Source of the DNA: Sphingosinicella ginsenosidimutans
GTDB lineage: Bacteria > Pseudomonadota > Alphaproteobacteria > Sphingomonadales > Sphingomonadaceae
Length of the DNA: 64,000 bases
NCBI RefSeq assembly: GCF_007995055.1
Contig: NZ_VOQQ01000001.1
Location: forward strand, 868,001 to 932,000
Direction of reading: 5' to 3'
The notes under the pieces were generated by a model, which was not told the origin of the DNA, made no database searches, and saw only the letters and a program-made list of their open reading frames with translations. How positions within the stretch are numbered: the first letter of the stretch is position 1; the number at the start of each line of letters is the position of its first letter. Below, one piece after another: positions 13,926 to 30,586 of the stretch. The position numbers were made by a program, and so were the translations under genes.

Positions 13926-14422
13926 CCCGTCCGCCGATCGCGCTGGTAGTGGCGCGCGCGGACAATGGCGTGATCGGGCGCGACGGCCGGCTTCCCTGGC
14001 ATCTCCCTGACGATCTGAGGCGCTTCAAACGGCTGACCATGGGCACGGCGATGATCATGGGCCGCAAGACCTTCGAAAGCCTCCCCGGATTGCTCCCCGC
14101 CCGGCGCCACATCGTCCTGACCCGCGATCGCGGATGGCGGGCCGAGGGGGCCGAGGTGGTCCACGACGTCGGCGGCGCGATCGCGGCGGCCGGGGACGAC
14201 GCAGCCGTCTCCGTCATCGGGGGCGCCGACATCTTCCAGCTGTTCCTGCCGATCGCCGACCGGATCGAGCTCACCGAGGTCCATGGCGACATCGCCGGCG
14301 ACGTGACGCTGCCCCCCTTCGATCCCGCGCGCTGGCGCGAGATTTCACGCGAGGATCATCCGGCGGCCGAGGGTCGTCCGTCGTTCAGCTTCGTGACACT
14401 CGCGCCGCACGCCGTTGTTTGA
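13922..14422 (+). CDS. folA: Dihydrofolate reductase
   Basis: 166 residues from a GTG at 13922 that overlaps the thyA stop (GTGA). Reduces dihydrofolate to tetrahydrofolate with [18 protein letters not shown] at about 24-36 contains the active-site acid (D31, aligned with E. coli D27). IMGRKTFES and the glycine pair in VIGGADIF are NADPH-binding segments. The first residues ([17 protein letters not shown]) match the family, which supports the GTG over any internal ATG. thyA-folA pairing ensures recycling of dihydrofolate. Confidence 0.95.
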
Positions 14423-14443
14423 TCACCGGCACTTTCCTATAGC
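14415..14443 (+). promoter_or_regulatory. Candidate ribF promoter inside the folA 3' end
   Basis: -35 TTGTTT (14415-14420), 17-bp spacer, -10 TATAGC (14438-14443), ending 7 nt before the chosen ribF ATG (14451). The geometry is the same as at thyA and again suggests a leaderless or nearly leaderless transcript. No FMN riboswitch can fit in the 28-nt gap. Confidence 0.4.
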
Positions 14444-14450
14444 CCGATCC

Positions 14451-15392
14451 ATGGAGCGCCTCGACGGGGGCTCGGCGGTTCCGGAGCGGCTTCGCGGGGG
14501 CATCGTCGCGCTCGGCAATTTCGACGGTTTTCACGAGGGCCACCAGGCGGTGGTCGGTCGCGCCGTCTCGCGCGCCCGCGCCGAGGGGCGGCCGGCGCTG
14601 GTCGCGACCTTCGATCCGCATCCGGTTCATTATTTCAGGCCGGACCTGCCGCCCTTTCGCCTCACCAGCCTCGACCAGCGCCAGCGCCTCTTCGCCGAGG
14701 CGGGGGCCGATGCGATGCTGGTGTTCCGCTTCGACGCGGAGCTCGCGGGCGTCACCGCTCCCGATTTCGTCACCGATCATCTCGCCAGCCGGATCGGCGC
14801 CGCCGGCGTCGTCACCGGCGAGGATTTCACCTTCGGCAAGGGGCGCGGCGGCAATGTCGACGTGCTGAAGCTGCTCGGCCAGGCGAACCGCATCTCGGTC
14901 GATGCGGTGGCGCCGGTGGTGGAGGATGGCGAGGCCGTCTCGTCGAGCCGCATCCGCGATGCGCTGCGGGCCGGCGATTGCCCCCTCGCCGCGCGTCTCC
15001 TTACCCGGCCCTTCGCGATCGAGGGGGTTGTGGAGCATGGCGACAAGCGCGGCCGCGAACTCGGCTTTCCGACCGCCAATCTGGCGATGGGCGATTATCT
15101 GCGCCCCCGATTCGGCGTCTATGCGGTGCGCGGCCGCCTGCCCGACGGACGCATGGTGGACGGCGTCGCCAATCTCGGCACCCGGCCGATGTTTGATCCG
15201 CCCAAAGAGCTGCTCGAGCCGTGGTTCTTCGATTTCGACGGCGATCTCTACGGGCAGACGATCGAGGTCGCGCTGATCGCCTTCCTGCGCGACGAGACGA
15301 CCTTCGACGGGCTCGACGCACTGAAGGCGCAGATCATGCGCGATGCCGAGGCGGCGAAGGCGGCGCTTGCCGCGACGCCGCCACAACCTTAA
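14451..15392 (+). CDS. ribF: Bifunctional riboflavin kinase / FAD synthetase
   Basis: 313 residues. The N-terminal nucleotidyltransferase (FMN to FAD) shows GNFDGFHEGHQ at 22-32 and SSSRIR at 164-169. The C-terminal flavokinase (riboflavin to FMN) shows GFPTANL at 205-211. An in-frame ATG at 14415 would overlap folA and add 12 residues unlike the family, so 14451 is preferred. ileS begins 12 bp downstream, and the ribF-ileS-lspA order is conserved in many proteobacteria. Confidence 0.96.
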   Translation: MERLDGGSAVPERLRGGIVALGNFDGFHEGHQAVVGRAVSRARAEGRPALVATFDPHPVHYFRPDLPPFRLTSLDQRQRLFAEAGADAMLVFRFDAELAGVTAPDFVTDHLASRIGAAGVVTGEDFTFGKGRGGNVDVLKLLGQANRISVDAVAPVVEDGEAVSSSRIRDALRAGDCPLAARLLTRPFAIEGVVEHGDKRGRELGFPTANLAMGDYLRPRFGVYAVRGRLPDGRMVDGVANLGTRPMFDPPKELLEPWFFDFDGDLYGQTIEVALIAFLRDETTFDGLDALKAQIMRDAEAAKAALAATPPQP

Positions 15393-15404
15393 GTCCCGCG
15401 CTTC

Positions 15405-18401
15405 ATGTCCGACAAACCAGATTATAGAGACACCGTCTTCCTGCCGAAGACGGATTTCCCGATGAAGGCCGGCCTCGCGAGCAAGGAGCCGGTCATGCTC
15501 GCGCGCTGGGCGGAGGAGAAGCTGTACCAGCAGCTCCGCGCCGCCCGCGCCGGCCGCAAGCGCTTCATCCTTCACGATGGCCCGCCCTACGCCAATGGCG
15601 ACATCCACATGGGCCACGCGATGAACAAGATCCTGAAGGACATCGTCGTGCGCTCGCGCTCGCTGATGGGCCTCGACGCGCCCTACGTTCCGGGCTGGGA
15701 TTGCCACGGCCTGCCGATCGAATGGAAGGTCGAGGAAGCCTATCGCAAGAAGAAGCAGGACAAGGACGAGGTCCCGGTCGACCAGTTCCGCGCCGAATGC
15801 CGCGCCTATGCGGAAAAATGGGTCGCGGTGCAGTCCGAACAGTTCCAGCGGCTCGGCGTCATGGGCGAGTGGGACGATCCCTATCTCACCATGAAATATG
15901 AGTCCGAGGCGATCATCTGCGCGGAGCTGCTGAAGTTCGCCGAGTCCGGCCAGCTCTATCGCGGCGCCAAGCCGGTGATGTGGTCCCCGGTCGAGAAGAC
16001 CGCGCTCGCCGACGCCGAGGTGGAATATGAGGACATCACCTCGACCCAGATCGACGTGGCGTTCGAGATCGTCGAGAGCCCGATCCCGGAGCTGGTCGGC
16101 GCCCATGCGGTGATCTGGACGACGACGCCGTGGACGATCCCGGTCAATCAGGCTTTGGCCTATGGGCCGGACGTTGAATATCGCCTCTACGAGATTGGCG
16201 TAGCTGTCGACGCCGCCCCCGGCGTGGACGTTTTTGAAGATCCAACGGTGAAGGCGCTCCAAGGGCGCAAAATCCTGATCGCCGATAACAATGTCCTGAA
16301 ATCCGAATTCGAGTACCGCCTGAGGCGCCTTTGGCCAGGTGCTGTGCTGGTGGACCACGGTGACTGGTCGGGGGAGGGTAGGCTGCTGGAGGGCACCGTC
16401 GCCCACCACCCCATGCATAAACTCGGCGGCTTCTTCGCGAAGCCCCGCCCCTTCCTGCCCGGCGATTTCGTCACCACCGATGCGGGCACGGGTCTCGTCC
16501 ATATGGCGCCGGATCATGGCGAGGACGATTTCCTGCTCTGCAAGGCGCGCGGCATCGATCCGGTCTTCGCGGTCGAGGGCGACGGGCGCTATCGGAGCGA
16601 CTGGGCCTGGCTCGGCGGCAATCCGCTGTCGGTCATCAACAAGAAGCTGAACGCGCCCGACGGGCCGATCTGCACGGATTTGCGCGAGGCGGGGGCATTG
16701 CTCGCGGCGTCGGACGATTTCCAGCATAGCTATCCGCACAGCTGGCGATCCAAGGCCAAGGTGATCTTCCGCTGCACGCCGCAATGGTTCATCCCGATGG
16801 ATACTCCCTCTCCCCGGCGGGGAGAGGGTCGGGGTGAGGGGGAGCGAGCCGCAGGCGAGCGTCCAGCCTCCGAAGCAAATCTCAACCCGCAGAGCCCCCT
16901 CACCCAACCCTCTCCCCCCGGGGGAGAGGGCTATGGAAGCAACGCTCCCACCCTGCGCGAGATCGCGCTCGACGCGATCGAGCGGACGCGCTGGGTGCCG
17001 GAGCGGTCGATCAACCGCATCCGATCGATGGTGGAAGGCCGCCCCGACTGGGTGATCAGCCGCCAGCGCGCCTGGGGCGTGCCGATCGCGCTCTATGTGA
17101 ACCGGGCGACCGGCCAGTATCTCAACGATCCGGCGGTCAATGCGCGGATCGTCGAGGCGTTCAGGGCGGGCGGCGCGGATGCCTGGTTCACCGCCGATCA
17201 TCAGGCGCTGCTCGGGCCCGACCACAAGCTCGCCGATTACGAGCCGCAGAACGACATTCTCGACGTGTGGTTCGACAGCGGCTCCACCCATGCCTTCGTG
17301 ATCGAGCAGCGTTACGGCGATGGCGTTCGCGCCGATCTCTATGTCGAGGGATCGGATCAGCATCGCGGCTGGTTCCAGTCGTCGCTGCTCGAAAGCTCGG
17401 GCACGCGCGGGCGCGCGCCCTATGATGCGGTGCTGACCCACGGCTTCGCGCTCGACAGCCAGGGCCGCAAGATGTCCAAATCGGTCGGCAATGTCGTCGA
17501 TCCGCTGGCGATCATCCGCGACAATGGCGCGGACATCCTTCGCCTGTGGGTCGCCTCGACCGACTATTTCGAGGACGTGCGGATCGGCAAGGAGGTGCTT
17601 GCGGGCACGTCCGACGCCTATCGCAAGCTCAGGAACACCTTCCGCTATCTGCTCGGCGCGCTCGACGGGTTCAGCGAGGCCGAGCGGGTCGCGCCGTCCG
17701 AAATGCCCGAGCTGGAACGCTGGGTGCTTCACCGGCTGGCCGCACTGGACGCGGAGCTGAAGGCGGCGAACGAGGCCTATGACTTCAACCGCTACACGCG
17801 GGCGATCATGGCCTTCGCGAACGACGATCTTTCGGCCTTCTTCTTCGATATTCGCAAGGACAGCCTCTATTGCGACGCGCCGTCGAGCGCGAAGCGGCGC
17901 GCCTATCGCACCGTGCTCGACATCACGTTCGAGGCGCTGGTGCGCTGGCTGACGCCGGTGCTGTGCTTCACCTGCGAGGAAGTGTGGGGCACGCGCTATC
18001 CGGAGGGCGGATCGGTCCACCTGCTCGAATGGCCAGAGATCGACGCCGGCTGGCGCGACGAGGCGCTGGCGGCCCGCTGGGCCCGTCTCAGGACGCTTCG
18101 CGCGCTCGTCACCGAAGCGGTCGAGCCGATGCGGCGCGAGAAGAAGATCGGCTCCAGCCTGGAGGCGGAGATCGCGCTCGGGCTCGCAAGCGAGGCGGAT
18201 CGCGCGCTGGTGGCCAGCGTCCCGTTCGAGGAAATCTGCATCGTTTCCCGGGTTTCCGTCGCGCCGGAAGACGGGCAGACCGAGAGCGTGACGGTGACGC
18301 CGACGGAGCGCCACAAATGCGGGCGCTGCTGGCGGCACCTGCCCGAGGTCGAGGAGGACGGTGATTTGTGCGATCGCTGTGACGAGGTGGTGAATGGCTG
18401 A
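15405..18401 (+). CDS. ileS: Isoleucyl-tRNA synthetase with in-frame palindromic insert
   Basis: 998 residues, a class I synthetase charging tRNA-Ile. The HIGH motif is HMGH at 68-71, KMSKS is at 689-693, the CP1 editing domain lies between them, and two CxxC pairs at the C-terminus (about 970-995) bind zinc. Between QWFIPMD (to residue 466) and LREIALDAIERT, where relatives have only a short connector, about 43-47 extra residues rich in Pro, Gly and Glu are encoded. They come from a palindromic DNA element (16806-16930) inserted without breaking the frame. The flanking catalytic sequences are intact, so the enzyme is presumably functional, with a surface loop. The 3' end overlaps lspA by 8 bp. 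Confidence 0.97.
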   Translation: MSDKPDYRDTVFLPKTDFPMKAGLASKEPVMLARWAEEKLYQQLRAARAGRKRFILHDGPPYANGDIHMGHAMNKILKDIVVRSRSLMGLDAPYVPGWDCHGLPIEWKVEEAYRKKKQDKDEVPVDQFRAECRAYAEKWVAVQSEQFQRLGVMGEWDDPYLTMKYESEAIICAELLKFAESGQLYRGAKPVMWSPVEKTALADAEVEYEDITSTQIDVAFEIVESPIPELVGAHAVIWTTTPWTIPVNQALAYGPDVEYRLYEIGVAVDAAPGVDVFEDPTVKALQGRKILIADNNVLKSEFEYRLRRLWPGAVLVDHGDWSGEGRLLEGTVAHHPMHKLGGFFAKPRPFLPGDFVTTDAGTGLVHMAPDHGEDDFLLCKARGIDPVFAVEGDGRYRSDWAWLGGNPLSVINKKLNAPDGPICTDLREAGALLAASDDFQHSYPHSWRSKAKVIFRCTPQWFIPMDTPSPRRGEGRGEGERAAGERPASEANLNPQSPLTQPSPPGGEGYGSNAPTLREIALDAIERTRWVPERSINRIRSMVEGRPDWVISRQRAWGVPIALYVNRATGQYLNDPAVNARIVEAFRAGGADAWFTADHQALLGPDHKLADYEPQNDILDVWFDSGSTHAFVIEQRYGDGVRADLYVEGSDQHRGWFQSSLLESSGTRGRAPYDAVLTHGFALDSQGRKMSKSVGNVVDPLAIIRDNGADILRLWVASTDYFEDVRIGKEVLAGTSDAYRKLRNTFRYLLGALDGFSEAERVAPSEMPELERWVLHRLAALDAELKAANEAYDFNRYTRAIMAFANDDLSAFFFDIRKDSLYCDAPSSAKRRAYRTVLDITFEALVRWLTPVLCFTCEEVWGTRYPEGGSVHLLEWPEIDAGWRDEALAARWARLRTLRALVTEAVEPMRREKKIGSSLEAEIALGLASEADRALVASVPFEEICIVSRVSVAPEDGQTESVTVTPTERHKCGRCWRHLPEVEEDGDLCDRCDEVVNG
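16806..16930. repeat. Bipartite palindromic (REP/RPE-like) element inside ileS
   Basis: Two hairpins, each with a 10-bp stem CCCTCTCCCC/GGGGAGAGGG and 3-nt loop, lie at 16806-16828 and 16908-16930. Each is followed inward by a G/C-rich box (TCGGGGTGAGGGG and its near-complement CCCCTCACCCAA), so the two arms are inverted copies of each other around a ~55-bp centre. Elements of this look (translated as LTPTLSP..GRG on one strand) are common between genes in many proteobacterial genomes. Here it sits in frame inside an essential gene, like the palindromic elements known from Rickettsia. A related hairpin is at 30562-30586. Confidence 0.88.
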
Positions 18402-18960
18402 GGCCGAGGTCGCGAACGCCGAAGCGCCGCGCGCCACCGCGCCGGCCGACTGGCGCCTGAAGCGCAACCGCGCGGTCGCCATGGTGATCGCCCTGCTCGT
18501 CTTCGCGCTCGATCAGGCGACGAAATGGGTGGTGACCTATCCGCTCGGGCTCGAGAACCAGCCGGGGCAGAACATCCGCATCACCAGTTTCTTCAACCTG
18601 CACTGGGTGGAGAATAACGGCGTGTCGCTCGGCCTGCTTTCCGCCGATGGGCCGATGGGCCGCTGGCTGCTGGTGGCGATGACGGCGGCGATCGCGGTCT
18701 TCGTCTCCGTCTGGCTGTGGCGCGAGAAGCGGCGGGACGATTCGGCGGCGCTGGCGCTGGTGCTCGGCGGCGCGCTCGGCAACATCCTCGATCGGGTGCG
18801 CTTCGGCCATGTCGTCGATTTCGCCGATCTGCATTTCGGCACGTGGCGGCCGTTTTTGGTCTTCAATGTCGGCGATGCCGCGATTACCATCGGCGTGCTG
18901 CTTTTGCTTGTGCGCGCGTTGCTCATGCGCGATGGCAAGGGCGCGAAGAAGGAATCCTGA
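18394..18960 (+). CDS. lspA: Lipoprotein signal peptidase (signal peptidase II)
   Basis: 188 residues with four predicted membrane helices and a polar N-terminal extension of ~25 residues. Cleaves prolipoproteins before the lipidated cysteine. Catalytic aspartates are D133 (GNILDR) and D161 (FNVGDAAI). The usual NxGVAFG motif reads NNGVSLG. Its substrates in this window include the adjacent DUF3035 lipoprotein and those encoded at 11964, 44504 and 45963. Overlaps ileS by 8 bp, the classical ileS-lspA arrangement. Confidence 0.96.
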   Translation: MAEAEVANAEAPRATAPADWRLKRNRAVAMVIALLVFALDQATKWVVTYPLGLENQPGQNIRITSFFNLHWVENNGVSLGLLSADGPMGRWLLVAMTAAIAVFVSVWLWREKRRDDSAALALVLGGALGNILDRVRFGHVVDFADLHFGTWRPFLVFNVGDAAITIGVLLLLVRALLMRDGKGAKKES

Positions 18961-30561: not shown

Positions 30562-30586
30562 CCCTCTCCCCCTCAGGGGGAGGGGG
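30562..30586. terminator. GC-rich hairpin between convergent aminopeptidase and OPT genes
   Basis: 11-bp stem (30562-30572 with 30576-30586, one G-T wobble) around the loop TCA. Starts with CCCTCTCCCC, the same stem as the palindromic element in ileS, so it is probably half of such an element serving as a bidirectional terminator. There is no T-run. Confidence 0.6.

Follow-up and report, generated by a model that had tools for sequence, protein, structure and literature searches.

A palindromic element of 125 bp is located within the reading frame of ileS, the gene for isoleucyl-tRNA synthetase (IleRS), in a 64,000-nucleotide stretch of DNA from Sphingosinicella ginsenosidimutans (hereafter the window, at its whole length). 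Its position raises the question of what the element is, how it came to lie in an essential gene, and whether it marks a single insertion or a site that is occupied repeatedly.

The element and its place in IleRS

The ileS gene occupies positions 15405–18401 of the plus strand and was compared with the genes of relatives and with solved IleRS. The element spans 16806–16930 and is the long-spacer form of a repeat named here family A. The two inverted hairpins that the original prediction placed at its borders are present, with 10-bp stems and 3-nt loops and a length of 23 nt each: outer hairpin 1 (CCCTCTCCCCGGCGGGGAGAGGG) at 16806–16828 and, in inverted orientation, outer hairpin 2 (CCCTCTCCCCCCGGGGGAGAGGG) at 16908–16930. 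The ends of the element form 28-nt inverted arms that are 89% complementary. A subterminal pair of 11-nt arms, GGGTGAGGGGG at 16832–16842 and CCCCCTCACCC at 16895–16905, is fully complementary, and the first of these arms contains a TGA, which falls outside the ileS frame (G GGT GAG). The inner spacer of the long form lies between them (16843–16894). The sequence CCCTCTCCCC is found five times in the window, against 0.16 copies expected, and none of 100 shuffles reaches five; four of the copies are in the ileS hairpins and the fifth stands alone at 30562. The RNA fold of the 137-nt strand has a z score of −5.28, equalled by none of 200 shuffles. A comparison with Rfam gave 22 matches at E values up to 1, all under the gathering scores and 17 of them to microRNA families, and these were set aside as matches of shape only.

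The insertion site is flanked by two well-defined segments, the conserved PQWFIPMD codons directly before it (residues 459–466, 16779–16802) and the codons of helix LREIALDAIER directly after it (residues 517–527, 16953–16985). The variable loop in between (residues 467–516, 16803–16952) has 50 residues in the window, counted from PQWFIPMD to LREIAL, and three in most of the loci fetched from outside the family. As had been predicted, the insert is read in frame without a stop, and the gene is open over all of its 998 codons. The predicted gain of about 42 residues fares less well. The frame is kept, but 125 bp does not divide into whole codons, and the gain of ileS is therefore not the bare element. 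On the minus strand, a 1365-codon open frame (14385–18482) runs antisense to ileS and the preceding gene; it is most likely a by-product of the coding bias of DNA with high G+C content.

A structure model of the enzyme based on 49 wider sequences has a mean pLDDT of 89.3, and its fold agrees with that of solved IleRS. It replaces a first, poor model from 32 close sequences (mean pLDDT 59.1). The sole stretch of at least three residues with pLDDT below 50 is 474–511, predicted to lie between a strand (454–463) and the helix at 517–527. The low confidence of this stretch is in part forced, as few rows of the alignment cover the insert.

Family A and other repeats in the genus

The copy number expected of a repeat is borne out in the own genome (3.04 Mb), which contains 23 palindromes of the form CCCTCTCCC..GGGAGAGGG, compared to none for the reversed control. 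They were grouped into 16 sites, 14 of which lie between genes or ahead of apparent starts, as judged by inspection of open frames and composition rather than by mapped starts. The other two fall in frame within genes, one in ileS and one in glyS (GlyRS beta chain), where the element follows NILKKEGW (G000:C1:74972-75075, L031). The usual doublet in this genome is about 104 bp long; the inner spacer is longer in the ileS copy, and no second copy of this spacer was found in the genome. One further palindrome (G000:C1:2948201-2948224) is located immediately past the apparent stop of rpoB.

No transposase could be linked to family A. The genome has a single Y1_Tnp (RAYT-like) gene, a 241-codon open frame at G000:C1:2113373-2114096 (L186), and the 5-kb stretch around it is free of hairpins of at least 8 bp. 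No target-site duplication was seen in the flanks of the copies, which were inspected by eye and with no empty allele of the same strain for comparison.

Family A is found in 25 of the 26 genomes of the genus, the own genome included. A second repeat, family B, is found in 24 of the 26, with one match in the own genome, and in two of the others (G006 and G007) the matches include the ileS copies; the reversed-pattern control gave 0–1 matches per strand for both families. A third, family C, has 29–230 matches, both strands summed, in each of the six genomes chosen for it, against 0–1 for the control. Families B and C are independent multicopy families.

In-frame copies occur in other genes of the genus as well, namely glyS, valS, mutL, carA and cysG. 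All five of these genes carry one in genome G021 besides ileS, among the 29 repeat groups examined, which cover part of the 55 palindromes of that genome (the family A elements in mutL, cysG, carA and valS are L263, L274, L276 and L250, respectively). Two sites in glyS, after LVEEGI and after NILKKE, carry A, B, C, another repeat or nothing among the genomes of the genus, as read by eye. Judged from these in-frame hosts, aminoacyl-tRNA synthetases are frequent, though not exclusive, hosts. ValRS had been considered as a repeat-free control, but family-A-type hairpins are present in six of 27 loci (five of the 25 genomes with a match), so it provides no clean control.

A search with the window insert alone against 5.8 billion proteins gave 12 matches at E values up to 1 (99 candidates), six of them IleRS and six GlyRS beta chains. 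The family B peptide of a closely related IleRS (P0001, see below) gave six among 51 candidates, each of them an IleRS or a partial class I tRNA ligase. Both searches were restricted to proteins of 0.55–1.75 times the length that share 5-residue words.

The loop among relatives

The sampling of relatives was capped: of 590 loci the best 80 were used, and of 7997 proteins the best 120. The sample of 238 IleRS is weighted toward near relatives, and 11 of its rows duplicate the start and loop of another row; seven loci are outside the count, three because the pattern missed them (L179, L183, L184) and four because they were not extracted (L177, L178, L181, L182). The loop is longer than 16 residues in 214 of the 238, and in the Sphingomonadaceae sampled it is mostly longer at the same point, with up to 65 residues. 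By peptide, 117 loops belong to class A, 40 to B and four to C, one (L086) reads as A and B adjacent to each other, 52 match no named family, and 24 are short (16 residues or fewer); these classes were made by hand from the same loops, and four rows were moved to A by eye.

The assignments were checked at the DNA level without peptide rules, by asking whether a loop shares at least four 11-mers with repeat copies outside ileS. For family A this is the case in 28 of 104 loops, compared to 23 of 2080 control windows. The numbers are 6/104 against 1/2080 for family B, although the score of one of these six is far higher for A, and 4/104 against 13/2080 for family C, where the four loops persist after one ileS-bearing locus is taken out of the reference. 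This stricter test superseded one with 12-mers and 25-bp flanks, which had marked 72 of 1040 control windows along with 34 of 104 loops. The DNA evidence therefore spans about one third of the 104 loops, and the other class calls are resemblances of peptide. Three or more palindrome families, unrelated to each other and all multicopy in the genomes examined, have given rise to loops at this one site.

Farther away, the short state prevails. The loop has three residues in most of the alphaproteobacterial loci fetched: three in 13 of 14 from other families of the order and 21 in the remaining one (L167; 53 genomes searched), and among 28 loci at the level of the class (56 genomes from outside the family searched) 3–4 residues in 23, 8–10 in four and 39 in one. 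This last loop, from a distant alphaproteobacterium (L301), is at the same IleRS site and has a repeat-like look. Within the family, five members (L168–L171 and L175) have 5–31 residues and no clear repeat, and repeat-free loops are conserved among some close species, for example in the sanguinis group and one Sphingomonas clade. Three genomes of the same genus (G003, G013 and G022) have only 4–7 residues.

The original prediction proposed to see whether the segment is missing from close relatives, and in these three genomes it is, whereas its picture of a single insertion does not hold, given the long loops in most of the sample and the several unrelated palindrome families at the same site. 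Its own counter-case had been one insert shared by all sphingomonads with no repeat elsewhere. What is shared is the place and not the insert, and families A, B and C are multicopy elsewhere.

Contigs in two genomes stop at or near the ileS loop (G011:C71/C57 and G019:C370/C197), as expected where a multicopy repeat interrupts assembly. In a low-quality genome that is 68% complete (G020:C23, L146), the ileS match falls in two different frames, with the break ahead of the loop; this may be an assembly error or a real lesion.

The distribution of hairpins along the gene was followed in 96 distinct ileS genes, obtained from 110 loci after five same-genus loci with no full gene and nine duplicates had been dropped; the genes were picked as long open frames, so that open frames were selected for. 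Between PQWFIPMD and LRxxALxAI there are 66 perfect hairpins (stem of at least 9, loop up to 6), spread over 38 of the 96 genes. Elsewhere in the open frames there are 29. Eight of these are of family A type; they come from six relatives (L054, L060, L070, L072, L080 and L086), and all eight lie shortly upstream of where ileS appears to begin. The remaining hairpins outside the loop bear no resemblance to the families by eye. IleRS has another length-variable region, of 49–114 residues in the 61 genes measured, and no repeat-type hairpin was found there in the genes scanned. Near this region, one protein (P0009) has a second insertion point in the editing region, after HPMHFL, where the peptide PSPGGDEGKVDPGLRRGDG resembles a different repeat.

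Of 23 genes, 17 have the start of the first family A1 hairpin in one and the same phase, and the start points of the inserts vary by several codons among species. Among the 39 loops with family A hairpins, 15 retain the TGA of the repeat, and in all 15 it lies outside the reading frame, as it must in every open gene.

The turnover of the loop is evident from the closest pair of proteins. The window enzyme and P0001, which is known as protein only, are 99.0% identical over 945 aligned core residues, and their loop peptides are of family A and family B, respectively. There are nine differences in 948 residues, three of which lie no more than 30 residues away from the loop (P = 0.016), and at these three P0001 is the one that departs from the relatives compared. 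Another relative (P0002), with 87% alignment identity to the window enzyme, has a loop of only 10 residues. In comparison, the ileS of G021 has the same long form as the window. The two elements are alike at 112 of 125 positions, whereas the third codon positions of the two genes agree at only 68.5%, and a 19-mer of the inner spacer occurs, among the 357 loci compared, only in the ileS of the own genome and of G021. On this comparison the change may have taken place in P0001, with A as the older state; alternatively, related copies may have arrived separately. The long-form peptide is found in 15 of the 238 ileS loops and also in GlyRS beta chains.

Inheritance of the loop class is weak but present. 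On the core tree, at least 30 changes between A and B are required (31–39 in 30 shuffles), or 48 when C and the short state are included (58–66 in 30 shuffles); the observed changes are fewer than in all 30 shuffles, so some inheritance persists. Strict vertical inheritance was rejected, with class agreement in 6/7, 56/75, 88/157 and 1038/1742 pairs in bins of falling identity. Once core identity falls under about 90%, agreement is at the level expected by chance (0.59).

Origin of the loop and relation to known repeats

The 125-bp element is best explained as a palindromic repeat of the non-autonomous kind, with two head-to-head hairpins that make up a unit akin to a REP dimer or a MITE, in frame in ileS. 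Mobile palindromes are probably kept where the loop tolerates them and turned over quickly, with the ileS loop as a recurrent landing place. The elements would insert widely and be purged from most coding DNA. They would survive in ileS if their length and frame are right, as the loop could be extruded as a disordered segment with the fold undisturbed, and residents would later decay, be deleted or be replaced. Tolerance with turnover is the simplest account. Tolerance alone may be insufficient, since the other length-variable part of IleRS showed no repeat-type hairpin in the genes scanned, apart from the repeat-looking insert near it in P0009, and for this reason targeting and recombination are to be considered as well.

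Targeted insertion, in which the DNA here or a resident palindrome attracts elements and the hot spot is as much a matter of preference as of tolerance, is possible but not favoured. It would account for three or more unrelated families in one short stretch of a 3-kb gene, for the common phase of the first A1 hairpin and for the adjoining A and B in L086. On the other hand, the inserts of different species begin several codons apart, the sites in glyS, valS, mutL, carA and cysG have no obvious common target by eye, and the flanks showed no target duplication on visual inspection. We regard as similarly doubtful that ileS segments are exchanged between species by homologous recombination through the conserved flanks, rather than by repeated transposition. 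The spacer confined to two ileS genes, an element better conserved between the window and G021 than third codon positions, and the cluster of substitutions in P0001 next to the loop argue for such exchange. The otherwise nearly identical flanks of the window and P0001 would require a very short tract, however, and the insertion could itself bring a local burst of substitutions; moreover, the long form is not everywhere confined to ileS, and the dispersed copies of A, B and C make a mobile source available.

It is improbable that the segment is under positive selection as a long, hydrophilic, variable peptide or an RNA hairpin with a use in folding, interaction or translation pausing. Long loops prevail in the sample and some repeat-free ones are conserved in close species, but sequences, lengths and families vary with no common motif, and three genomes of the same genus do with 4–7 residues. 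An old protein feature or low-complexity drift, instead of a mobile element, is very hard to sustain: many members of the family have a loop of some length and 52 of the 238 lack a named repeat, yet the perfect hairpins, the multicopy identity and the short state of most loci outside the family speak against it, and it is contradicted for the loops assigned to A, B and C by DNA. Just as implausible is removal of the segment from RNA or protein, or a functional split of the gene there, for which no support was found beyond the strong RNA hairpin; the frame is continuous through the loop in the 96 extracted genes, which were picked as long open frames, and no known mechanism fits.

Recurrent landing in a tolerant loop recalls the palindromic elements of Rickettsia, short multicopy palindromes that are described as residing in frame in unrelated genes and adding a peptide segment (PMC10969869). 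Like these, the ileS element is a palindrome in the range of 100–150 bp in frame in a coding gene. Unlike these, its host is a sphingomonad rather than Rickettsia, and at a single point of ileS several unrelated families take turns and switch at 99% protein identity. The parallel drawn in the original prediction is apt for the process: the ileS element works in the same manner, a likeness of process that makes no claim on family membership.

REP dimers of the GTAG and CGTC super-families are described as head-to-head pairs of hairpins, dispersed and mostly intergenic (Di Nocera et al. 2013, PMC3733652). Family A likewise consists of head-to-head dimers of short hairpins. Its stem has no adjoining GTAG or CGTC in flanks read by eye, in contrast to those REPs, and the lone Y1_Tnp gene lacks the flanking repeats of the RAYT-mobilised GTAG REPs; family C looks like CGTC REPs. 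That account also describes intragenic REPs, some of them in tRNA synthetases (of which kind is left unspecified) of X. oryzae, E. litoralis and S. alaskensis, and reports a common site in recB of two Xanthomonas and different sites in other genes of that functional category; ileS is not named in the passages compared. With MITEs, family A shares its non-autonomous nature, a length of about 100 bp, dispersal and, in the arms of the element, terminal inverted repeats, whereas no matching autonomous element was found for it, nor a target-site duplication in the flanks inspected by eye.

In-frame palindromic elements (in Rickettsia) and intragenic REPs (in several bacteria) are thus already known. 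A search of open-licence papers found no publication on repeats at this ileS site, nor was a case found in print of one codon position of an essential gene filled successively by unrelated families, switching between near-identical proteins.

In-frame palindromic elements as a source of new protein segments have been discussed chiefly in Rickettsia. The sphingomonad ileS loop offers many natural replicates in one well-understood essential enzyme, with short-loop relatives as controls. The rate at which mobile repeats enter proteins, the speed of their replacement, the balance of targeting and tolerance, and the cost of a long disordered insert to an aminoacyl-tRNA synthetase could all be measured there. 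A stronger possibility, which we consider rather unlikely, is that ileS of the Sphingomonadaceae is a true cassette site, where insertion or recombination prefers this codon and swaps unrelated palindromes within species-level divergence, with glyS and valS as further sites. If so, an essential enzyme of this family would carry a rapidly diversifying segment.
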